NCBI RefSeq assembly: GCF_027594785.1
Contig: NZ_CP075584.1
Coordinates: 992,001-1,056,000, forward strand
Direction of reading: 5' to 3'
Length of the DNA stretch: 64,000 nucleotides
DNA from: Cryobacterium breve
GTDB taxonomy: Bacteria; Actinomycetota; Actinomycetes; Actinomycetales; Microbacteriaceae
Shown: positions 20,682 to 34,584 of the stretch, in pieces
Numbering within the stretch: the stretch's first letter is position 1
How the letters are laid out: every line of letters begins with the position of its first letter
Notes under the pieces: generated by a model
Seen by the model: the letters and a program-made list of their open reading frames with translations, nothing else
Told to the model about the DNA's origin: nothing
Database searches by the model: none
Program-made: the position numbers and the translations under genes

Positions 20682-22899
20682 TTACCGTTCGCTGGGAGTT
20701 CCGGGGGTTCCTGAAGCTTCGGCGGCCTCCCGGAGGTCGGCGATCAGCTGGAGCACGATCGGCACTTCCTCCGGTCCGCGCACCCGGTAGCCCGCGATGG
20801 TCGTGCCCGCGCCGATCTTGAGTCCGAGGTCGCTGGGGTGCAGCGCGGTGAAGGCGTCTTCGTCTGTCACGTCGTCACCGGCGTAGAACACCCGGTCGGC
20901 GCCCGTGTATGCACGGAGCCGTTCGAGAGCGTCGCCCTTCGAACTCGAACGCACGGCGAATTCGAGCACGTTCTTGCCCTCGCGCACGGTGAGATCCGGA
21001 AGGACGGCGCCGAGCTGTGCGCGGGCGTCGCGTTGCACGGCCTGGGCGGCCTGCACGGTCGCCTTGCGCGTGTGCAGGGCGAGCCCGGCGGGCTTGCGTT
21101 CGATCCACACGCCCGTCACGGATGCCGAGACCCGCTCGAGCACCCGGGTGAGCGTGTCGAGCTGGTCGAGTTCGTCCTGGTCGAGCCCGAGCTCTTCGCC
21201 CGGGTTGTCCAGTTGCACCTCGATGCCGTGTGAACCGGTCAGGAGCACCTCGATCTGCGGTTCGGCGACCTGGCGCAGGCTCGCGAGCGATCGGCCGGAG
21301 ACGAGGGCGACACGCACGCCGTCGAGCCCGATCAGGCGTTCGACGGCCTCGCGGGTGCCGGCAACGGCACGCGAGTCCTGGGGGTTGTCAACGATCGGGG
21401 CGACGGTGCCGTCGAAGTCAAGCGCGATGAGCAGCGAGCCCGCCGCACTGAAGTCGCGGACGGCGTGGACGAGGTCGTCGGGTACGCCGGGCTGCACGGC
21501 GGCGCCCTCCCGGAGTGTGCGCAGGAACGACGACGACCAGGCGGCGACGTCGTTGTCGAACACCTTCCGGCGAAGAGCCCGCATCCGCCGCTGCCGTTCG
21601 GGGCGCGGCATCGCGATCGCCCGGAGGATCGCCGCCTTCATTCCGTCGATGTCGTGCGGGTTGATCAGTACGGCCTGCTTGAGTTCGTCGGCGGCCCCGG
21701 CGAATTCGCTCAGCACGAGCACGCCGTCCTTGTCGTCGCGGACGGCGACGTATTCCTTGGCGACGAGGTTCATCCCGTCGCGGAGGGCGGTGACGAGCAT
21801 GACGTCTGCGGCGAGGTACAGGGCGACCATCTCTTCGCGCGGGTAGCCGTGGTGGTGGTAGCTGATCGCGGTGTGGCTGATCGTCGAGTAGTCGCCGTTG
21901 ATGCGGCCGACGGCGAGTTCGATCTCGTCGCGGAGGGCCATGTATGCGCCGACGCGCTCCCGGGAGGGGCTCGCGACCTGCACGAGGGTGACGTCCTCGA
22001 CGGAAATCGACCCGTCCTCGAGGAGCTCGCCGAAGGCCTTCAGACGGTGGCCGATGCCCTTCGTGTAGTCGAGCCTGTCGACGCCGAGGATGATCGTCTT
22101 CGGGTTGCCGAGGTCTTCGCGGATGCGGCGCGCGCGGGCCTGGATCTCCGGCTGCTTCGCGAGGTCGGCGTATGCGATGGCGTCGATGGAGATCGGGAAG
22201 TGCTTGGCGATCACGCGGCGGTGGTGTCCCCCGGCGCCCGGAACGTCGATCGCGACACCGCGGGTGGAGTAGCCGAAGAGGCGACGGACCGCGCGGGAGA
22301 AGTTACCGGCATCCGCCAGCCGCTGGAAGCCGATCAGGTCGGCGCCGAGCAGGCCGTCGAGGATCTGTTTGCGCCACGGGAGCCTGCGCGTAGATGCCGT
22401 ACGGCGGGAACGGTATGTGGTTGAAGAAGCCGATGACGAGGTCGGGGCGCATGTCGCGCAGCATCCGCGGCACGAGTTGCAGCTGGTAGTCGTGTACCCA
22501 GACGGTGGCACCGGATGCCGCGGCCGCGGCGGCCGCTTCGGCGAACCGCCGGTTCACGCGCACGTATGCCTCCCACCATTCGCGGTGGAAGCTCGGCGGG
22601 GAGATCACGTCGTGGTAGAGCGGCCAGAGGGTGTCGTTGGAGAAGCCCTCGTAGTAGTCCTCGAGGTCGGCGTCGGTCAGCGAGACGGGAACGATGTTGA
22701 TGCCGTCGTTCTCGAAGGGGGCGAACTCGCGGTCTGCGACGCCGGGCCAGCCGACCCAGGCGCCATCGGACGAGCGCATCAGCGGTTCCAGGGCGGTGAC
22801 GAGTCCGCCCGGTGAGGTCTTCCAGCTCTCGGTGCCGTCTTCGGCGACGACGAAGTCCACGGGCAGCCGGTTCGAGACGGCGACGAGGGCGTAGGTCAC
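20682..22899 (-). CDS. otsAB: Bifunctional trehalose-6-phosphate synthase/phosphatase (OtsA-OtsB fusion; one apparent 1-bp insertion)
   Basis: About 738 residues. The N-terminal GT20 domain (~1-470) makes trehalose 6-phosphate from UDP-glucose and glucose 6-phosphate: [66 protein letters not shown]. The C-terminal HAD phosphatase (~490-738) releases trehalose: [34 protein letters not shown]. The frame breaks at 22380-22386 (expected GAGCTG reads GAGCCTG). The start is uncertain: GTG 22899 ([13 protein letters not shown]) is chosen because similarity begins there. The fusion makes a bifunctional trehalose synthase, likely for osmotic or cold protection. Confidence 0.9.
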
Positions 22900-23077
22900 C
22901 TTCGGCTCGGCAGCGGGCGTGGTGACGGCTTCGATCGAAATGGCTGGTCCGTTCCGGTACCTGCACGGCGCACGCACCTTGGTGGACTTCCAAGGATACC
23001 AGCAGCCCGTGCCGAGCTCCCTGATTATTGGGCCGCGCGACACCCACCGTTCAACCGTCGGGTTTACTCTGGCGCCA

Positions 23078-23935
23078 ATGATTCGCATCGGCATGAGCAC
23101 GACGTGCGCCTATCCGCTCTCGACAGAGCATGCCTTCCGGCTTGCGAAGCTCGCGGGATACGACGGCATCGAAATCATGGTCTCCCGCGACGAGGTCACC
23201 CAGGATGCCGCTGCGCTCCTGGCCCTCTCGCGGAAATACAAGCTGCCGATCTTCTCGATCCACGCGCCCGTGCTCCTGCTCACGCATTTCGTCTGGGGCA
23301 GGGACCCGCTCGTGAAGCTCGAACGATCGGCAGCCCTCGCGGCCGAGGTCGGGGCGCGAACCGTCGTCGTGCATCCGCCGTTTCGCTGGCAGGCCGACTT
23401 CGCCGTCACGTTCCTCGACTCCGTGCGCGAGATCAGCGCGCAGAGCGGCATCGAGATCGCGGTCGAGAACATGTTCCCGTGGAAGTTCGGCGGCCGGAGC
23501 ATGAAGGCGTACTCCCCCGGCTGGGACACCACCCGGATGGACTGCGACGCGGTCACGCTCGACTTCTCGCACTGCGCCCTGAGCGGGCTCGACAGCCTCG
23601 CGATGGCGACGGAGCTCGGCGCCCGCCTCAGGCACGTGCACCTGTGCGACGGGTCAGGCTCCCTTGACGAGGGCAAGGTCTTCGACGAGCACCTGCTGCC
23701 CGGCCGGGGCAGCGAGCCGGTCGCCGAGGTGCTCAACCTGCTCGCGCGCACGGACTGGGACGGCCGGATCGTCGCGGAGGTCAACACCCGCAAGGCGCGT
23801 ACCGAGCAGGAACGCCTCGTGCTTCTCGTGGAGACCCTCGCGTTCGCGCGCCTGCACACGAATCAGCGCCGGGTGCGCCGCGCCCCGCGCTCGCCTCGCG
23901 CCCGCGAGTCCCTGCGTCCCGGCCAGCAGCACTAG
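23078..23935 (+). CDS. Sugar phosphate isomerase/epimerase-like TIM-barrel protein
   Basis: 285 residues of the AP-endonuclease-2/xylose-isomerase-like TIM-barrel family. Metal-site residues are visible: FSIHAPVLL (His), VVVHPPFRW (His), IAVENMFPW (Glu), [10 protein letters not shown] (Asp/His), [10 protein letters not shown] (His, Asp) and [10 protein letters not shown] (Glu). The substrate is unknown. A TTTACT -10-like box lies only 8-13 nt before the ATG at 23078, so the message may be leaderless, which is common in actinobacteria. The Arg/Pro-rich tail ([18 protein letters not shown]) is basic and unusual. Divergent from otsAB; palindromic element copy B follows the stop. Confidence 0.78.
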
Positions 23936-24057: not shown

Positions 24058-26052
24058 TCAGCCGCGGGCGAGGGCCAGGGCGAAGGAACGCGGGCCACGC
24101 TTGGCGGCAACGGCCCAGAAGGTCAGGCCGATGCTCACCACCGCGAAGAGCAGCAGGATGCCCACGGCATTGAGCGCGCCGGCTCCCCCACCCGACACGA
24201 TCCCCTGCATGCCGCGCACGGCCCAGGTGAGCGGCAGGAACGGGCTGATCGCCTGGAACGGCGCCGAGACGAGCTCGATCGGGTACAGGCCGCCGACCGC
24301 CGTGAGTTGCAGGGCGAGGAGCACGAGGGAGATGACGATGCCGACCCTGCCGAACGCCACGGTAAGGAACTGGTGCACCGCGACGAACACGAACGCGAGG
24401 AACACCGCGAAGCCCAGTGTCGCGGGGAGCAGGGTCCAGGTCACGCCGAGCGACGCGTGCAGCAGGGCGACGACGACGACCGCCTGGACGGCGGCGAGGC
24501 CGAATGCCCGGCCGAAGCCACGCGAGACGAGGCGCCCGGTCGAGGCCGTCGACGCGAGCGCGGTGCTCGTCACCGGGCGCATCACGAGGAAGATCGCGAG
24601 CGCGCCGATCCAGAGCCCGACGGGAACGAAGACCATGCCGAGGAGCGGGCCGATCGTCGTGATCGGATTGTCGCGGCTCGTGGTGATGGCGACGGGCTCC
24701 GAAACGACCGAAGCCGACTGCGCAGGGTCGTCCTGGTTCAGTTTCTTCGCGCTCTCGGCTCCGGACGCGAGCCCGGTCGCGAGCTGGCTCGCGCCCGTCT
24801 CGAGCTGGTGCACCCCGGTGGCCGCGCCGGCGGTCCCGGTCGCGAGCTGGGAGACGCCGCTCGAGAGGCTCGAGACGCCCGAGGCGAGGCCGGTCGCGCC
24901 GGTTCGGAGCGATGCGGATCCCGCTGCGAGCTTCGCGGCCCCTGCCGCGCTCTGCGCGACGCCGCCCTGGACGCCCGTGAGAGCGGATGTCGTCTGCTGG
25001 CTGAGTCCGGTGCCCTGGGTGGACAGGGTGTCGAGCCCGCCCTGAACGCCCGTGATGCCACCGGAATACTGGGTGAAGTACGCGCGGTACTTCGCGATGA
25101 TCTCCGAGGCGTGGGTGGGATCGGCGGCGACTGCCTGCGCCATCGCGTCATAGGTGGGGACGAGGGGTATCGCCGCAGACAGGCTCGACAACCCGGTCGC
25201 CGCCTGCGTGACTCCCCCGGTGTACTGGGCGACGCCACTGCTGAGGGCGCTGAGCCCCGCCGTGCCGGAGTCGAGCTTGCCGAGGCCCGCGCTGAGCGCA
25301 TCCACCCCGTTCGTGTACGCCGTCACTCCGGTCGCGAAGCTCGACGCTCCGGTCGCGGCGGACGCCGCTCCGGTGGCCGCGGAGGACGCGCCCCCGGAGA
25401 GGGAATCCAGGCCGGTGGCCACTCCGGTGACTCCCGTGGAGACCTGGCCGGCGCCATCCGCTGCCGTGGTCAGCGAGCCGCCGAGCGTGGTCAGGCCTTT
25501 GTACAGGCCGCTCAGGTACTGGGTGGTGATCTGACGGCCGAAGACGCCCGTCATCGCGGACCCGACGGTCCCTGCGACGGTTCCGGCGAGGTAGGAATGC
25601 GCGTCGTCGGTGCGGATGGCGAGTTCGGCCTGGGTCGGTGCTGCGGTGCCGATCGAGGTGATCGATTTGGAGAAATCGGCGGGGATGGTGAGCACCGCGT
25701 ACGCCTTGCCGGAGGCGAGGGCGGCCGCCGCATCCGCGGAATTGGAGATCGTCCAGGCGAACCCGGTCGACGCAGTCCTCGACGAGGCCGGCGCGGTCAG
25801 CTCGGTCACGAGCAGGCGCCCGGCGAGCACGGTCTGCTTTGTGCCGTCTGCGGCCGTCGTCGTGACGAAGGTGTCGTTGTTGACGACGATCGCGGGCAGG
25901 GTGTCGAGCCGCTGGTCTGCGGTCGCGAGCGCGCCGGCGAAGACGCCTGCGACCGCGAGCGGTACCACGATCAGTCCGGCGAGTACGGCGCCGAAGGTCC
26001 AGCGGCGCTGTCCCGGCGTGCGGCTGAAGAGTCGTTCGAGCCTGGTGCTCAT
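24058..26052 (-). CDS. YhgE/Pip-family membrane protein with X-X-X-Leu-X-X-Gly repeats
   Basis: 664 residues. One N-terminal membrane helix (GAVLAGLIVVPLAVAGVFAG), an extracytoplasmic region with the Pip motif (LPAIVVNNDTFVT), a long stretch of heptad-like repeats from about residue 195 to 430 (SSLSSGVSQLATGTAGAATG and similar), then five or six C-terminal membrane helices of the ABC-2 permease type. The family includes phage-infection protein Pip and YhgE; members are often next to MMPL transporters in actinobacteria. Its ATG overlaps the stop of the upstream MMPL gene (ATGA). I infer an envelope export machine with the MMPL partner; the cargo is unknown. Confidence 0.87.
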   Translation of the reverse strand: MSTRLERLFSRTPGQRRWTFGAVLAGLIVVPLAVAGVFAGALATADQRLDTLPAIVVNNDTFVTTTAADGTKQTVLAGRLLVTELTAPASSRTASTGFAWTISNSADAAAALASGKAYAVLTIPADFSKSITSIGTAAPTQAELAIRTDDAHSYLAGTVAGTVGSAMTGVFGRQITTQYLSGLYKGLTTLGGSLTTAADGAGQVSTGVTGVATGLDSLSGGASSAATGAASAATGASSFATGVTAYTNGVDALSAGLGKLDSGTAGLSALSSGVAQYTGGVTQAATGLSSLSAAIPLVPTYDAMAQAVAADPTHASEIIAKYRAYFTQYSGGITGVQGGLDTLSTQGTGLSQQTTSALTGVQGGVAQSAAGAAKLAAGSASLRTGATGLASGVSSLSSGVSQLATGTAGAATGVHQLETGASQLATGLASGAESAKKLNQDDPAQSASVVSEPVAITTSRDNPITTIGPLLGMVFVPVGLWIGALAIFLVMRPVTSTALASTASTGRLVSRGFGRAFGLAAVQAVVVVALLHASLGVTWTLLPATLGFAVFLAFVFVAVHQFLTVAFGRVGIVISLVLLALQLTAVGGLYPIELVSAPFQAISPFLPLTWAVRGMQGIVSGGGAGALNAVGILLLFAVVSIGLTFWAVAAKRGPRSFALALARG

Positions 26053-29000
26053 CGCAGTGCAGCCTTTCCATCCAGGGAGTCGGCGCCGAAGACGGCGTCG
26101 CGGGGGTCGGGGGTGTCGGTTGGCCGGGTCGCATGACGCGGGTCAGGGTCGAGCGGCGGATATCCGCCGCGAGCTCCGGCGAGGGCGAGCTCTGCCGGTT
26201 CGACGGGCTCGAGCGCTTCGAGGTCGACGACCTGCACGGACCGGCCCGCTGCGGTCAGCGGATGCTGCGCCGCCGCCGCGAAGATCAGCGTGGTGTCGGC
26301 GGGAGCGAGGGTCGCCACCACGGCACCGACGCTGCGTCCCGCGGAATCGGCGGGGAGCCCTTCGCCGAGGTCGATGACGACCACGCCGGGACGTTCGGCG
26401 AGCGCCGCCGCGACGAGGACCGCGGCACGGGAAACGGCAGACAGGGAGGAGACGGGGGTGGCCGCGGTGAGGGGCGCGAGCGGGGCGCGGTCGTCGGCGA
26501 GGGCACGGTTGACGCGTCCGATCCAGCTGTCGAGCTGGCTGCGGCGGCTGCGGGAGCGGAACCGTGGCTGGGTGAGGTCGAGCCGCTCGGCGAGCAGTTC
26601 GCCCACGGTCATACCGTTGTCCCGGCTGTCGCCGACGTCGGCGAGCGCGACGACGCGTAATGCGCGACCGCGTTCGGAGGGCAACGGATAGCTGAGGACC
26701 TGGAGTCGACCGGAGACCGGGTCGAGGCGGCCGGCGAGCGTCGCGGCGACCACCCGGCGATGGGCGGTGGTCCCGGTGAGGACGAGCACAGATCCGGTCG
26801 GCACGGAAACGGTGAGCGGGCCGATCGTGCTGCCCGGCAGGCCGAAGACGGCCTGGTCCGCGGTGATGGCGCCGTCCTGCGCCTTCGCCCAGTGACTGTC
26901 GAGCATGTGGTGGCGGAGTCCTTCGCCTTCGATGTCGACGTTGGGGAGCAGGCGGTCGAGCCAGCGCGGCAGCCACCAGGCGGCACGGCCCGCGAGGGCC
27001 ATCGCGGCGGGCACGAGCGTCATCCGCACCAGGAAGGCGTCGAGGAACACGCCGACGGCGAGGGCGAACGCAATGCCCTTGATCGCTCCGGTGCCGTCTG
27101 GCACGAAGGCGAAGAAGACGAAGAACATGATGAGCGCCGCTGCGGTGACGACGCGGGCGGCGTGTGCGAAGCCGTAGACGACGGCCTGGCGCGCGTCGTT
27201 GCTCTTGACGTACTCCTCACGCATCCCGGACACGAGGAAGACCTCGTAGTCCATGGCGAGTCCGAAGAGCACGGCCATCAGCAGGATCGGCAGGAAGCTC
27301 AGGATCGGGCCTGGCGTGCTCACCCCGAGCAGGTCGGCGAACCAGCCCCACTGGAAGATCGCGACGGTCGCGCCGATCGACGCGAAGACGGAGAGCAGGA
27401 ACCCGATCGCTGCCTTGACCGGCACGAAGACGGAACGGAACACCATCGTCAGCAGGATGATGGAGAGCCCGACGACAATGAGCGCGAACGGGATGAGCGC
27501 GTTGCTCAGCCGGTTCGAGATATCGATCGACACGGCCGTCGCTCCCGTCACCGTGACGGGAGTCCCGAGTTCGGAGTCGATTCCCGGCGCGAGGTCCCGA
27601 ATGGCCTGGACGAGGTCCTTGGTCTTCGGGTCGTTCGGTGCGCTGTTCGGCATCACCTGGATGATCGCGGTGTCGACCGTGGCGTTCGGGGTGCCCTTGC
27701 CGACGAAGGCGACGTCGGGCAGGGTGCGCAGCTTGGCGCTGATCGTCTCGAGGTCCGGGAAGATGTTCGTGGTCTGGGTGATGTCGACCACCACGATGAG
27801 CGGGCCGTTGTAGCCGGGGCCGAAGCCCTCCTCGATCATGGTGAATGCCTTGTGCTGGGTCGAGTCGACCGGCTCGGAGGCGCCGTCCGGCAGGTTGAGG
27901 TCGAGGCTGAGGGCGGGGATCGCGAGGGTGCCGAGGATTCCGACGACGAGGATCACGGCGACGATCGGTGCCTTCATCACGAGGCCGACCCAGCGGCGGC
28001 CCATCGTGGGCCGGCCGGTGTCCGGCATGGTCGCCCGGTTGTGGGCGCGCCCGCCGGGTTTCGGGGGTGAGGCGGCCCTTGGCCAGGCCGAGAATGGCGG
28101 GCAGGAGGGTGATGGCGACGAGGATGGCGATGAAGACGGCGACCGCGGCTCCCACCCCCATCACGCTCAGGAAGGGAATTCCGACGACGAGCAGTCCGAG
28201 CAGGGCGATGATGACGGTGAGCCCGGCGAAGACGACCGCGCTCCCGGCGGTGGCCACGCTCGTCGAGGCCGATTCGTGCGGTTCGACCCCCTCGCGAGCT
28301 GGGTCCGGTGCCGGGACAGGATGAAGAGCGAGTAGTCGATCCCGACGGCGAGCCCGAGCATCATCGCAAGCATCGGGGCGGTGCTCGAGACGGGCACGAA
28401 CGCGGAGATCGCGGTGATACCGCCGATGGCCACGCCGACGCCGATGAGCGCCATCAGCAGCGGCATCCCGGCCGAGGCGAGCGAGCCGAAGGTGATCAGC
28501 AGCACGACGCCGGCGAAGAGGAGGCCGAACACCTCGGTGATGGTGATGCCGAAGGTGTTGGACGAGAAGACCTGGCCACCGAAGGCGACCTCGAGACCCG
28601 CCTTCTCGGCGATCGCCGCCGTCGCCGTGACGGCGTTGAGGGTCGCGTCCGTCACGTCCGCGGATGGCCCGTCGAGTTGCACGACGCTGCGCGCGGTCCC
28701 TTCGTCCGTCGAGATGGCGCTCGAAGCGTAGTCGGAATAGGGGGTGATCACGGACACGACGCCGGGCACGGCCTCGAGTTCGGTCGCCATGTCGGTGGTG
28801 GCGGTCTTGTACGGCTCCGTGTTGACGGATGCCCCGTCCGGCGTCTTGTAGACGACCTGCACAGAGGCGCCGGCCGCCTGGGGGAACACGGCGGCGAGCT
28901 GGTCGATCGCGTCCTGCGATTCGGTGCCGGGGATCGCGAAGGATTCGGCGGTCTTGCCGCCCAGGGCGATGCCGCCGCCGAGGATTCCGATGAGGAGGAG

Positions 29001-29072
29001 CGCCCACACGCCGATGACGAGCCAGGCGCGCTTGTAAGCGAAGTGGCCGATCCGATACAGAAGGGTTGCCAT
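26049..29072 (-). CDS. MMPL/RND-family transporter with C-terminal degenerate ABC ATPase domain (two apparent indels)
   Basis: About 1007 residues after correction. The N-terminal ~700 residues form the usual MMPL pattern: two repeats of one helix, a large periplasmic loop and a helix bundle, with LGLAVGIDYSLFILSRHR and FGLAMDYEVFLVSGMREE as the proton-relay D-Y motifs. From about 26850 downward comes an ABC-like domain: GPLTVSVPTGSVLVLTGTTA in the Walker A place without GxGK(S/T), SSLSAVSRAAVLVAAALAE at the signature, and PGVVVIDLGEGL in the Walker B place without the usual DE. It looks unable to hydrolyse ATP. Indels at about 28292-28295 (missing base) and 28048-28053 (extra base). Coupled to the YhgE gene and downstream of a TetR gene. 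Confidence 0.87.
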
Positions 29073-29077
29073 TGTGA

Positions 29078-29713
29078 TTACTTCCTGGGCTGGGTGGTGC
29101 GGACGGCGACGGGGGCGAGGAGTTCGGAGAGGAGGGTGATGAGGGCGGGCCGGAGATCGTCCGTCGGCGTGATGTCCTCGTCGAAGAACGTCAGGCCGGC
29201 GACGAGCGAATAGGCCGCGCCGCCGAGCGCGACACCGAAGCGCATCCGGTCGATGGTCGTGGCGTGCTCCTGGCAGAGGGCGTCGCCGAGGCGAACGATC
29301 AGGGCCCTGGCCCTGTCGATCACGGCGATGCCCTTGAGGGACTGGGCCTGGTTGATCAGCACGTGTACTTCGAGCCGGTACTGGAGCAGGAAGTCGACGA
29401 AGTCCTCGATGAACTGACGACGCGAGGCAGCGTCCTCCGAGGTGGACGTGAACCCGCCGAGGATGTCCTCGAGGCGCTCAATGGCCGGGGTGAGCACTTC
29501 ACCGAGGAGGGCGTCCTTCGAGGCGAAATGGTAGAGCACGCTCGATTTCGAGTACCCGGCGGACGCCGCGATCTGTTGCAGGGAGGTACCGGCGAACCCG
29601 ACGGCTGCGAACTGCTGCAGCGCCATGACCCGCAGGCTCGGCTCCCGCACCGGGGCGGACAGTCGCGACAGCGGCGGGGACGAGGTCTTCCGGTTCGATC
29701 GGCACTGGACCAC
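29078..29713 (-). CDS. TetR/AcrR family regulator of the MMPL-YhgE operon
   Basis: 211 residues. HTH region AVGFAGTSLQQIAASAGYSK then SSVLYHFASKDALLGEVL is typical TetR. The C-terminal domain (FVDFLLQYRLEVHVLINQAQ; LGGAAYSLVAGLTFFDEDIT) binds an unknown ligand. It begins the minus-strand unit and ends 5 bp before the MMPL start, so regulator, MMPL and YhgE are probably one transcript. GTG 29713 is chosen as start because a perfect palindrome lies just upstream; a GTG at 29743 would place the operator inside the gene. Confidence 0.83.
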   Translation of the reverse strand: MVQCRSNRKTSSPPLSRLSAPVREPSLRVMALQQFAAVGFAGTSLQQIAASAGYSKSSVLYHFASKDALLGEVLTPAIERLEDILGGFTSTSEDAASRRQFIEDFVDFLLQYRLEVHVLINQAQSLKGIAVIDRARALIVRLGDALCQEHATTIDRMRFGVALGGAAYSLVAGLTFFDEDITPTDDLRPALITLLSELLAPVAVRTTQPRK

Positions 29714-30148: not shown

Positions 30149-30580
30149 ATGTTTGGTCGACGACGTCGTGCCGCACCTGCCATTCCGGTCCCGGTGATAC
30201 CCACCCCCGAACTCAGCGACGACGAGGTCTTCGACCTCTTCCACGGCGAGTTGTCGCGGCTGATCGGCGAGCAGGGCCTCTGGACCCTTGTGCCGCGCAG
30301 CCCGGCAGACACCGACGTGATCTTCCACGGCCTCAAGGCCCGCCAGGTGGCCGCCTCCCTGACGACGGCGCTCCGCAGCGCGACCTCGAAGTTGCGCGGC
30401 GAGTCCGTCGGCGAACCGGCGGCGCTGTCGTTCACCCCCGCTCCGATCACCGTCTGGGCCGAACCGGATGCCGCTGCGCGCAAGCCGGCCGCCCCGCAGC
30501 CACAACGTCTTGTCTCCGCCGTGCCGCACGCAGGCCACACCGCCGTCGAACCCGCAGAACGCGCCCGCCTCGTCGCCTGA
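30149..30580 (+). CDS. Hypothetical cytoplasmic protein
   Basis: 143 residues, no family recognised. A basic start (MFGRRRRAAP), Pro-rich linker, then a compact ~75-residue acidic-to-neutral core (ELSDDEVFDLFHGELSRLIG; WTLVPRSPADTDVIFHGLKA) and an Ala/Pro-rich tail. The core is predicted helical with a short strand. ATG 30149 with AAAGG at 30136-30140 is the likely start; a longer GTG start at 30062 adds an unconvincing Arg-rich stretch. It lies 73 bp before the GH15 gene in the same direction. Confidence 0.5.
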   Translation: MFGRRRRAAPAIPVPVIPTPELSDDEVFDLFHGELSRLIGEQGLWTLVPRSPADTDVIFHGLKARQVAASLTTALRSATSKLRGESVGEPAALSFTPAPITVWAEPDAAARKPAAPQPQRLVSAVPHAGHTAVEPAERARLVA

Positions 30581-30653
30581 GCATTCGCTCCCGGTCCCGA
30601 CCCGGGCATCCGCTCACAGCGGCCCGACACCCGCGCGATGGCAGGATGTCTGC

Positions 30654-32496
30654 ATGCCCCTGAACATCGAGGACTATGCCCTGATCGGCGACTGCCACTC
30701 GGGTGCCCTGGTCGGCAGTGACGGCAGCATCGACTGGCTCTGTCTGCCGCGCTTCGACTCCGCGTCGATGTTCGGCGCGCTCCTCGGCACCGAGGACCAC
30801 GGGCGCTGGCTGCTCGCCCCGGCAGACCCCGCCGCCACGAGCACGCGCAGCTATCTCGACGGCACCTTCATCCTGTCCCAGACCTGGACCACCCCGACGG
30901 GGAGTGTCGAGGTCCTCGACTTCATGCCGCACGGTGACGGTCGCCCTGACGTGCTCCGCCGGGTGCGCGGCGTGTCCGGTTCCGTCGAGATGGCAGAGGA
31001 ACTGCGCATCCGCTTCGGCTACGCCGTGAGCATTCCCTGGGTGCGCCAGGTGCACCAGGACGGCGAGACGGTGTTGCTCGCCGTCGCGGGTCCCGACGCC
31101 ATCGCCGTGCGCGGCCCGGAGCTGACCGCCGCCGACCACCGGCACACGGCCACATTCACGGTTGCGGCGGGTGAGGTCGTCGACCTGCAGCTCGCCTGGC
31201 ATCCCTCGCACCGAACCCCGCCCGCCGCCGTCGACGTCGACGCAGCGCTGGCTGCGACGACCGCCTGGTGGACCGACTGGGCCAGGTCCTGCACGCACGA
31301 CGGCCCGTACCGGGACGAAGTCGTGCGCTCCATGCTCGTACTGCGGGCGCTCACTCACGAGGACACCGGCGGCATCGTCGCGGCGGCGACGACGTCACTC
31401 CCGGAATTCCGCGGCGGCCACCGCAACTGGGACTACCGCTATGTCTGGCTCCGCGACGCGGCGCTCACCCTGACCGTGCTGCTCGCGCACGGATATGAAG
31501 CGGAGGCCCACGACTGGCGCGGCTGGCTGCTGCGCGCGATCGCCGGCGACCCCGACGACGTGCAGATCATGTACGGGCTCGCCGGCGAGCGGTACCTGCC
31601 GGAGCGTGAGCTCCCCAGCCTGCCCGGATACCGCGGGTCCAGCCCCGTGCGGGTCGGCAACGGCGCCGTCGACCAGTTCCAGGCCGACGTGATCGGCGAA
31701 GTCCTGGTGGCACTGCACGCCGCGCGCCACAGCGGTCTCACGGAGGGCGAGTTCTCCTGGCCGCTGCAGCGCGCACTGATCGGGTCCCTCGAGCGGAGCC
31801 TGGTCCCGGCCGGATCAGGGCATCTGGGAGGTGCGGGGGCCTGCCCGCGAATTCACCCACTCCCGGGTGATGGTCTGGGCGGCCTTCGACCGGATGGTAC
31901 GTGGCTGCACCGAGTTCGGACTCGACGGCCCCGTCGAACGCTGGACGGCCCTGAGGGACGAGATCCGCAGGGACATCGAGCAGCGGGGCTTCAACGCCGA
32001 ACTCGGCACATACACCCAGTACTTCGGCGGCACCGAGGTCGACGCCTCCCTGCTTGTGCTTCCGCAGGTGGGCTTCCATGAACCGACGGATGCCCGGATG
32101 CTCGGCACGGTCGCCGCGATCGAGGCCGACCTGATGCGGGACGGCCTGGTGCTGCGCTACCGCACGGAGGTGCCCGTCGACGGTCTGGCCGGCGGCGAGC
32201 ATCCGTTTCTCGCCTGTTCCTTCTGGCTCGTTGAGCAGTATGCGAGCTCGGGGCGGGGCGAAGACGCCCGGGCGCTGATGGACCGGCTCGTCGGATTCGC
32301 CAACGACGTGGGGCTGTTGAGCGAGGAATACGACGTCGGCGCGGGCCGCCAGGCCGGCAACACGCCGCAGGCGCTCACCCACCTCGCCCTCGTTCGCGCG
32401 GCCGACGCGATCACGGCGATGGAGGAGCGGGCCGCCCGGCCCGCCCGGACGGGAAGCGAGATCGCCGCCGCGGCCGTTTCGGGTGCCGACCGATAG
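30654..32496 (+). CDS. Glycoside hydrolase family 15 protein (glucoamylase/trehalase type; one apparent 1-bp insertion)
   Basis: About 613 residues after correction. N-terminal beta-sandwich starting IEDYALIGDCHSGALVGSDG and SIDWLCLPRFDSAS, then an (alpha/alpha)6 barrel with NWDYRYVWLRDAALTL and the catalytic-Glu region PDQGIWEVRG. This N-terminal signature is shared by GH15 glucan hydrolases and by the actinobacterial GH15 trehalases; with otsAB in the same window a trehalase role is plausible but not proven. The frame breaks at 31796-31802 (expected GAGCTG reads GAGCCTG), just before that catalytic motif. ATG 30654 is the natural start of the conserved sequence. Confidence 0.88.
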
Positions 32497-33193: not shown

Positions 33194-33874
33194 GTGAGCA
33201 CGATCGTCTTCGACGGGGTGTCGCACTCCTTCGGCGACCGGCGCGTGCTCCGCGACCTGAGCCTCACCCTCACCGAACGCCGCATCGGGATCGTCGGAGC
33301 GAACGGCTCGGGCAAATCCACCCTCGTCCGGCTGATCAACGGGCTCGTGACACCGGATGCCGGCACCGTCACCGTCGACGGACTCCTCGTCGCGAAGAAC
33401 GCGCGCGAAGTACGACGCCGGGTCGGCTTCATCTTCACCAATCCCGACAACCAGATCGTGATGCCGACCGTCGAGGAAGACGTCGCGTTCAGCCTCCGCA
33501 AACGCGGACTGAGCGCGGCCGAGATCGCCGGGCGCACCCGGGAGGCACTCGACCGTTTCGGGCTCAGCGCCCACGCCGCCCACCCGGCGCATCGGCTCTC
33601 CGGCGGCCAGAAGCAACTTCTCGCCCTCGCCGCCGTCCTCGTCGGAGAGCCGCGGGTCGTCGTGGCCGACGAACCGACGACACTCCTGGACGCCCGCAAT
33701 TCCCGGCGCATCGCCGACCTGTTCCGGGCCATGACCCAGCAGGTGATCGTCGTCACCCACCAGCTCGATCTCCTCGAAGACTTCGACAGGGTGATCTGCA
33801 TCGAGGACGGCGCCATCGTCGCGGACGGCGCACCGGCCGTGGCCATCGACGCGTACCGGGCACTGCTCGCATGA
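33194..33874 (+). CDS. bioM: Biotin ECF transporter ATPase (BioM)
   Basis: 226-residue ECF-type ABC ATPase. Walker A GANGSGKSTLVRL, the Q-loop region FTNPDNQIVMPTVEEDVAFS (typical for ECF ATPases), signature RLSGGQKQLLALA, Walker B VVVADEPTTLLDARN and switch His VVTHQLDLL are all present, so it should be active. GTG start 6 bp after bioY; the stop overlaps the bioN ATG (ATGA). It energises biotin uptake by BioY together with BioN. Confidence 0.93.
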   Translation: MSTIVFDGVSHSFGDRRVLRDLSLTLTERRIGIVGANGSGKSTLVRLINGLVTPDAGTVTVDGLLVAKNAREVRRRVGFIFTNPDNQIVMPTVEEDVAFSLRKRGLSAAEIAGRTREALDRFGLSAHAAHPAHRLSGGQKQLLALAAVLVGEPRVVVADEPTTLLDARNSRRIADLFRAMTQQVIVVTHQLDLLEDFDRVICIEDGAIVADGAPAVAIDAYRALLA

Positions 33875-34465
33875 TCGGCCTCTACTCGCCGGGGCACTCA
33901 CTCCTCCACCGGGCGCCGACCCTTCTCAAACTGGCCGTCCTGTCGGCCGGGGTGCTCTGGGTCGGCATTCTCGGCGAACCGTGGCATCTCCTGGTCGCGC
34001 TCGGCGTCGTCGCCGGCCTGTACCTCGTGGCCGGCGTGCCCCGCGCGCGCGGCCTGGCAGCAGATCGGCCCGATCCTGTGGATCCTCCTGATCGCCGTGC
34101 CGATCCAGGCGCTCCTCGCGGGCTGGGCCCCGGCGGCGCTCATGGCCGGCCGGCTGCTCGTGGCCGTCGCCCTCGCCGCGCTCTTCACGCTCACGACCAC
34201 CGTGACAGCGGTACTCGAGGGGTTCCAGCGGCTGCTCCGCCCCTTCGGTCGCTGGGTCGATGCCGACCGGGTCGGCCTGCTCGTGGCGATCACGCTGCGC
34301 TGCATCCCCCTCGTCGCCGAGATCGTCACCGAGGTGCTCGAGGCCCGCAGGGCCCGCGGCACCCAGGGTTCCCTGCTCGCGCTCGCGGTGCCGGTCGTCG
34401 TGCGGTCGCTGTACGCGGCGGATGCGATCGGCGAGGCCCTGGTCGCGCGCGGTCTCGACGACTGA
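33871..34465 (+). CDS. bioN: Biotin ECF transporter transmembrane T component (BioN; one apparent 1-bp insertion)
   Basis: About 197 residues after correction, CbiQ/EcfT family with four to five helices. N-terminal MIGLYSPGHSLLHRAPTLLK and the C-terminal coupling motifs EARRARGT and ALVARGLDD (the Ala-Arg-Gly boxes that dock to the ATPase) are visible. The frame breaks at 34051-34057, where an expected GGCTGG reads GGCCTGG. Overlaps bioM by 4 bp. It links BioY to BioM in the membrane. Confidence 0.9.
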
Positions 34466-34584
34466 CCGGCAGCCGTGTGACACCCGTTCTGGGTACTTCT
34501 CCGGCACGAACGAACCTCGACAGCCCCACCGGCCGGGACCACACTGGGAGCATCTGAACCATCGTTTCCTAGTGGAGGCCGCTC

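Follow-up and report, generated by a model that had tools for sequence, protein, structure and literature searches.

The DNA window analysed here, a 64,000-nucleotide stretch of the Cryobacterium breve genome (contig NZ_CP075584.1, positions 992,001 to 1,056,000), contains a compact putative operon on its minus strand, which encodes a TetR-family regulator, an MMPL transporter and a YhgE/Pip family membrane protein. The genome is 3.96 Mb in size and consists of a single contig; its nearest named relatives are Cryobacterium species of the family Microbacteriaceae. The first gene of the operon, encoding the TetR regulator (29743-29078 of the window), matches PF00440 with 49.2 bits against a cut-off of 24 and is located 5 bases upstream of the MMPL gene. 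The latter, identified from the gene list and Pfam, occupies 29072-26049 in its whole extent, including a frame-broken part, and overlaps the gene for the 664-residue YhgE protein (24058..26052) by 4 bases, the ATGA at 26049-26052. Both this overlap and the position of the pair behind a TetR gene had been described in the initial annotation, made from the sequence letters alone, and were found as stated there. The C-terminus of the MMPL protein carries a degenerate ABC ATPase-like domain, and the relation of this domain to YhgE is the main subject of the analysis.

The MMPL domain PF03176 was matched twice in the window protein, with 125.1 and 103.4 bits against a cut-off of 20.5. Two DY motifs, which we take to be the proton-relay motifs of MMPL proteins, are located at 28323..28343 (GIDYSLF) and 27237..27257 (AMDYEVF) on the minus strand, as had been expected, and both are present in all 95 rows labelled domain-bearing and in 7/7 domain-less MMPLs. 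We infer that the MMPL part is a proton-driven permease. In its MMPL domains and two DY motifs the protein is similar to MMPL/RND transporters such as MmpL3 (PF03176, NF052608), and its score against the MmpL3 model NF052608, 130.3 bits, is far under the cut-off of 1400. To our knowledge, MmpL3 possesses neither an ABC-like domain nor a YhgE partner.

The C-terminal domain comprises about 295 residues (26052..26936, minus strand, starting approximately from DIEGEGL) and follows the plan of an ABC ATPase. It corresponds to residues ~713-1007 of the protein as initially annotated, where its size had been given as ~270 residues. In HHalign, a profile of 27 domain sequences matched ten canonical ABC ATPases with a probability of 91.8% (E 7e-7), and the TetR and YhgE negative controls gave 0.2% and 0.1%. 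The same profile matched ABC proteins in the PDB, with a best E of 6e-4. An AlphaFold2 (AF2) model of the domain (pLDDT 80.7, pTM 0.78) returned 1046 PDB matches at E<=1e-3 in Foldseek, with a probability of 1.00, and among the best 50 of these all identifiable ones were ABC proteins. The prediction of an ABC nucleotide-binding fold holds, the similarity being found by both profile-profile comparison and structure prediction, two of the checks that the initial annotation had proposed. A chance resemblance of an unrelated C-terminal domain can be given virtually no weight. It would be in line with the low score of the window domain alone against ABC_tran (PF00005; 15.6 bits, under the cut-off of 25) and with the 11 of 27 relatives that do not match ABC_tran at E<=1, the other 16 doing so. 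The cut-off is, however, passed by the fused relatives L238 (60.6 bits) and, barely, L130, the Foldseek probability and both HHalign comparisons (91.8% and the 99.7% given below) stand against chance, and HHalign together with the negative controls refutes it in practice.

The closest homologues of the domain are encoded by separate genes next to YhgE. Seventeen separate YhgE-partner ABC-like proteins aligned with the domain in HHalign over 225 columns with a probability of 99.7% (E 1.9e-25), far above the canonical ABC ATPases. Separate matches sit directly upstream of YhgE in 11/11 loci fetched from the search of the family and in 19/19 fetched from the search of the order. The HHalign result and this constant position place the domain with the YhgE-partner ABC-like proteins, to which it is homologous over its length. 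The separate proteins considered are those of the loci L193-L252 (60 YhgE loci), L133-L143 and L173-L192; their 74 rows represent 71 distinct genes (L252 repeats the gene of L175, and the stretches L223/L231 and L241/L244 overlap and contain tandem copies). For three of these proteins, no model of their own was present among the best 25 NCBIfam matches. The genome of the window also contains a second YhgE locus (L226, G000:C1:2583925-2592710), where the ABC-like gene is separate and encodes a worn P-loop.

In the genus, 28 of 57 genomes, including that of the window, have a close domain-bearing relative with 71-95% identity, split over two frames in genome G041, and a diverged form of the domain is found in G024 and in a second copy of G052. 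YhgE adjoins all 28 close relatives, the G024 copy and the second G052 copy (places compared by eye). The search of the family gave a match in 173 of 299 genomes, and among the matches listed most strong ones lie in open frames of ~1000 residues, i.e., are fused. The idea that the domain is private to Cryobacterium was rejected, since the fusion spans many Micrococcales and many families of the order. Outside the order, among the matches listed in a class-wide search with the domain profile, the only fused frames with a linker were in G656 and G740, to which L238 and L239 belong.

A domain-bearing MMPL gene has YhgE following it in 90 of 92 loci: 30/31 from named genomes, 33/33 from the family search, 19/20 from the order search, and 2/2 and 6/6 in two further sets. 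The two misses, L099 and L160, are both at contig ends. The places were chosen by hand from those listed (40 in the family search, 40 in the order search and 20 in the last MMPL set), and 11 of the 12 listed family-search rows with frames under 350 residues were fetched, G306:C35 being left out. The domain of L144 is under the profile threshold and was recognised by reading, and L269 matches the ABC profile, not the domain profile. The initial annotation had named a pattern that would speak against its proposal, namely domain-less MMPLs still always paired with YhgE; among the domain-less MMPLs examined, YhgE was found beside 0 of 21 (0/7 and 0/14). A weak YhgE-profile match lies ~2 kb from one of them (L259, E 1e-5), and in L262 the MMPL frame itself gives such a match (E 9e-5).

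The same relation was seen when YhgE was taken as the starting point. The 60 YhgE-centred loci from across Actinomycetes comprise 59 of the 61 over the cut-off (the window's own locus and G310:C62, both known to be fused, were omitted) and one below it. A separate ABC-like gene is present in 47 of them, a fused MMPL in nine, all nine with the domain, and neither in four (L241, L244, L249 and L251); none of the 60 stretches showed a domain-less MMPL. The 47 include 42 recognised at first and five very diverged ones (L214, L218, L221, L224 and L227), which were ruled out as partner-less loci by strong matches to the separate-partner profile. In fused loci the MMPL and YhgE genes are adjacent or overlapping, with no ABC gene between them. 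We lean towards reading this as a two-gene system behind a TetR gene, in which the fused C-terminal ABC-like domain of the MMPL protein serves an ABC-2 type YhgE protein in place of a separate subunit, the domain being a physical connector.

The ATPase motifs of the window domain are worn. At the Walker A position (LTGTTAHRRVVAATLAGR, 26727..26780, minus strand, as are all positions given here) the motif is GTTAHRR, with Lys and Ser/Thr replaced by Arg-Arg (R60 and R61). In the HHalign alignment, the Q-loop strand position reads VALADVG (26631..26651), the signature position reads SSLSAVSRAAV, with LSAVS instead of LSGGQ (26418..26450), and the Walker B position, GVVVIDLGEG (26358..26387, motif VVVIDLGEG), has retained Asp and lost the catalytic Glu; the aligned H-loop position, TTLIFAAA (26271..26294), is without His. 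The initial annotation had reported Walker A and catalytic residues as missing, to which the signature and the H-loop His can be added. In the survey of C-termini that it had suggested, the domain was conserved in 27 relatives of the Cryobacterium group, with R60 and R61 invariant.

Among fused domains, Arg-Arg occurs in 58/95 and Arg at the position of the Walker A Lys in 71/95, the Lys being retained in four. Walker B Asp is present in 55/95 (33 rows are gapped at this column) and the catalytic Glu in 0/95. Distinct separate domains have Arg at the Lys position in 47/71 cases and Lys in 14/71; their Walker A is mostly GR[TS] or GK[TS]. LSGG[QEM] was found in 0/95 fused and 0/74 separate rows. 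The separate genes upstream of YhgE in Actinomycetes share the domain family, the YhgE partner and the absence of LSGGQ with the window domain and differ from it in being unfused and in never having Arg-Arg. They appear to form a family of ABC subunits with worn motifs that serve an ABC-2-like protein; wear is common to the separate partners, and is therefore not simply a product of fusion to MMPL. A less worn state of the fused domain also exists, since the ABC domain of L238 and L239 is nearly complete, with GSGKT and the helical lobe retained, and L238 scores over the cut-off of ABC_tran; these two are perhaps near the ancestral state, or represent a second fusion. Fused L130 and L165 still have GKS.

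The retained motifs of L238 and L239 and the Walker A Lys of the 14 separate partners leave room for continued use of ATP, either by unusual hydrolysis in the YhgE-partner domains or through a complete ABC ATPase that is encoded elsewhere and works with the degenerate domain. Asymmetric ABC dimers, in which one half has worn sites, offer a precedent. On the opposite strand, ~4 kb upstream, there is an intact ABC ATPase gene (33194-33874), whose product resembles the ATPase of an energy-coupling factor (ECF) transporter and presumably belongs with its own neighbours. We regard continued use of ATP as improbable, given the absence of LSGG[QEM] from every fused and separate row and the lack of an ABC gene between the adjoining MMPL and YhgE genes.

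The YhgE protein itself exceeds the cut-offs of TIGR03061 (104.8 vs 96.15 bits) and TIGR03062 (156.2 vs 102.2 bits), and belongs to the same family as the Firmicutes YhgE/Pip proteins (phage infection protein, EsaA/YueB). The Firmicutes proteins are known as phage receptors and parts of type VII secretion systems. The membrane domain of the window's YhgE scores 60.5 bits against PF12698 (ABC-2; cut-off 31.6), which bears out the earlier assignment of its C-terminal helices to the ABC-2 permease class. In the AF2 model (m3204d8fbacea, pLDDT 77.6, pTM 0.50), a single transmembrane helix at the N-terminus is followed by a long helical domain, presumed to be extracellular, and by a membrane domain at the C-terminus. 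A probable cytosolic coupling segment (VTSTALASTASTGRLVSR, 24520..24573, minus strand) lies between transmembrane helices 2 and 3, its place and role being suggested by the secondary structure of the model. With this model of pTM 0.50, Foldseek ranked ABCH and ABCG chains first, at a probability of 1.00 with a best E of 1.1e-3 and none at E<=1e-3. In the PF12698 match and these Foldseek ranks YhgE resembles ABC-2/type V ABC transporters (ABCG, PF12698); it differs from them in a large extracellular helical domain with XXXLXXG repeats and in an operon without a canonical-motif ATPase. The fourth-ranked match was a chain of the MmpL5-S5-AcpM complex (probability 0.69), which probably arises via the long helices; these might take the place of the MmpL4/5 coiled coil.

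The YhgE/PIP domain is described in PMC4999554 as having no known function. According to Table 2 of PMC9782250, cholesterol raised two genes of Saccharopolyspora hirsuta whose locus tags are neighbouring, one for a YhgE/Pip protein (F1721_04135; 3.82) and one for an MMPL protein (F1721_04140; 3.33). This table gives a hint of a sterol- or lipid-linked role.

For the history of the fusion, quick trees were built for YhgE, MMPL and the ABC domain, and their long branches were flagged. In the tree of YhgE (136 rows), partner type has to change once if the frame-broken L176 is counted as fused, and twice otherwise. L176 had been considered as a separate ABC gene; this was rejected, as its locus is fused and carries the domain in a different frame, and the tree counts treat it as fused. 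In the YhgE tree, the other fused rows have L239 as their sister (SH-aLRT 99). The MMPL tree has 73 domain-bearing rows on one side of a branch and eight domain-less ones on the other (SH-aLRT 98), with two very long domain-less branches. A clade of 87 fused domains (SH-aLRT 99) stands in the ABC-domain tree beside separate proteins mostly with worn P-loops. The fusion is old and widespread.

The MMPL gene of the window had been presented initially as one open frame of 1007 residues. In this assembly, the frame that begins at 29072 meets a stop at 28167, giving a first piece of 301 residues (28167..29072) with the 125.1-bit PF03176 match. From ~28287 to ~28067 the MMPL sequence continues in a different frame, and a single-base difference from a relative marks each end of this stretch, as judged from the open reading frame list and the comparison with that relative. 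The second piece of 659 residues (26049..28028) contains the second MMPL half, with the 103.4-bit match, and the C-terminal domain. Three relatives at 95% identity (L010, L011 and L012) have the gene in one open frame; an intact frame is not present in the window's genome. The completeness of this genome is 83%, and over 16.7 kb the window differs from two relatives by 29 and 45 frame-changing length differences, the number between these relatives being 20. On account of these two figures, sequencing error is suspected; they point to it as the cause of the frame breaks rather than prove it.

Frame changes were also observed in other genes. A gene at 20682-23100 of the window, presumably for a trehalose-phosphate synthase/phosphatase, is split across frames, and one at 30468-32496, which we take to encode a GH15-type glycoside hydrolase, lies in two. 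The gene that follows the ABC ATPase gene, at 33871-34557, has an apparent frame change with a second reading at 34097-34465. Another MMPL gene of the same genome, G000:C1:1514986-1517042 (L003, L006, L007), is spread over several frames.

In the loci examined, the domain is ABC-like, is kin to the YhgE partners, lacks the ordinary ATPase residues, is under selection in Cryobacterium and occurs only with YhgE. In the connector reading favoured here, YhgE would need an ABC-like subunit at its cytosolic face, and in the fused branch this subunit would be a part of MMPL, holding MMPL and YhgE as one complex. The domain would bind the cytosolic face of YhgE and connect it with the MMPL permease. 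As ATP is presumably no longer hydrolysed, energy would have to come from the MMPL proton relay, and the working strokes, if any, from proton flow through MMPL. Alternatively, MMPL could move a lipid-like substrate for which YhgE, with its long helical domain, provides a fixed extension outside the cell. A bolder form of the connector reading is that an ABC-2 type YhgE has changed its engine: its ATPase subunit would have lost hydrolysis and been fused to a proton-driven RND permease as a mechanical connector only, so that an ABC-type permease would be run by the proton gradient. In this form, which is put forward tentatively and seems doubtful, the Actinomycete YhgE partners would more generally be an ABC-like family mostly without the Walker A lysine (usually arginine) and the signature.

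Several points weigh against the domain as a connector. Physical contact between the domain and YhgE is something we infer, and in an analysis of covariation between the two, over 162 pairs, 0 of the top 40 were at the YhgE cytosolic face (as defined in that analysis), compared with a background of 10.5%. The highest scores lie above those of shuffles within partner type (0.231 vs 0.149), but shuffling removes relatedness, and the strong pairs are taken as clade markers. The helical lobe, which helps to contact the permease in ordinary ABC transporters, is missing from 9/33 family-level and 20/20 order-level fused domains; in those relatives the standard ABC docking geometry therefore cannot apply, and contact, if any, would not be of the ordinary ABC type everywhere. 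The pairing counts come from loci related by descent and are not independent events. A single origin of the fusion would fit the YhgE and MMPL trees and does not fit the ABC-domain tree, which groups L238 and L239 with separate proteins retaining the Walker A Lys (SH-aLRT 95); either worn domains attract each other in this tree, or there were two fusions. The domain has an omega 1.6 to 14 times as high as the MMPL core, and the window's own MMPL gene is frame-broken. The initial proposal, that a pseudo-ABC domain docks an ABC-2-like partner on a proton-driven MMPL, is on balance strengthened in its link to YhgE by the homology to the separate partners and their position, and gained no support from covariation; docking and proton coupling would still have to be assumed.

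The figures for the helical lobe were obtained from alignments read by eye. Automatic counts of lobe loss disagree (19/95 fused in one, 44/94 fused in another, which also flags 25/62 separate) and were set aside. A clade of 31 fused YhgE rows (SH-aLRT 99) has the domain present without the helical lobe in all 25 loci read. Lobe-less fused domains are found in many Micrococcales (L122, L124-L128, L130-L132, L153-L172).

The absence of the lobe from many relatives also bears on the possibility that the domain is a regulatory or assembly module, which binds YhgE, a nucleotide or a lipid in order to switch or place MMPL without mechanical coupling. The Arg-Arg pair, invariant in the Cryobacterium group and frequent among fused domains, would provide such a module with a conserved charged site. 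The close pairing with YhgE points to YhgE rather than to a general ligand, and we consider a module of this kind unlikely, if worth keeping in view.

Selection was assessed in 16 Cryobacterium pairs, which are not independent of one another. The domain gave omega values of 0.13-0.39 and the MMPL core values of 0.02-0.15; in Cryobacterium the domain is under purifying selection, less strict than that on the core. A remnant of an old fusion that is tolerated while it slowly decays, with its YhgE linkage reflecting only the common descent of the operon, would be expected to evolve faster than the core, as the domain does, and to lose parts such as the helical lobe. The YhgE and MMPL trees, fitting a single origin, would likewise agree with it, the loci then not being independent events. 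It is nevertheless very improbable in our judgement, as omega is well under 1 in 16/16 pairs, the domain is present in many families of the order and no domain-less MMPL was found beside YhgE in the sets examined.

Among the matches listed in the open-access literature, no description of an MMPL protein with an ABC-like domain was found. The locus appears to encode an MMPL transporter with a pseudo-ABC domain that is tied to YhgE by descent and neighbourhood. RND/MMPL and ABC transporters are regarded as distinct mechanistic classes, each with its own energy source. The presence of an MMPL engine and an ABC-like domain in one conserved polypeptide, beside an ABC-2-like partner, makes it testable whether an ABC-type permease may be run by, or tied to, a proton-driven motor, and for work in harmless bacteria of soils and glaciers the YhgE/Pip family gains a candidate partner and a testable mode of action.

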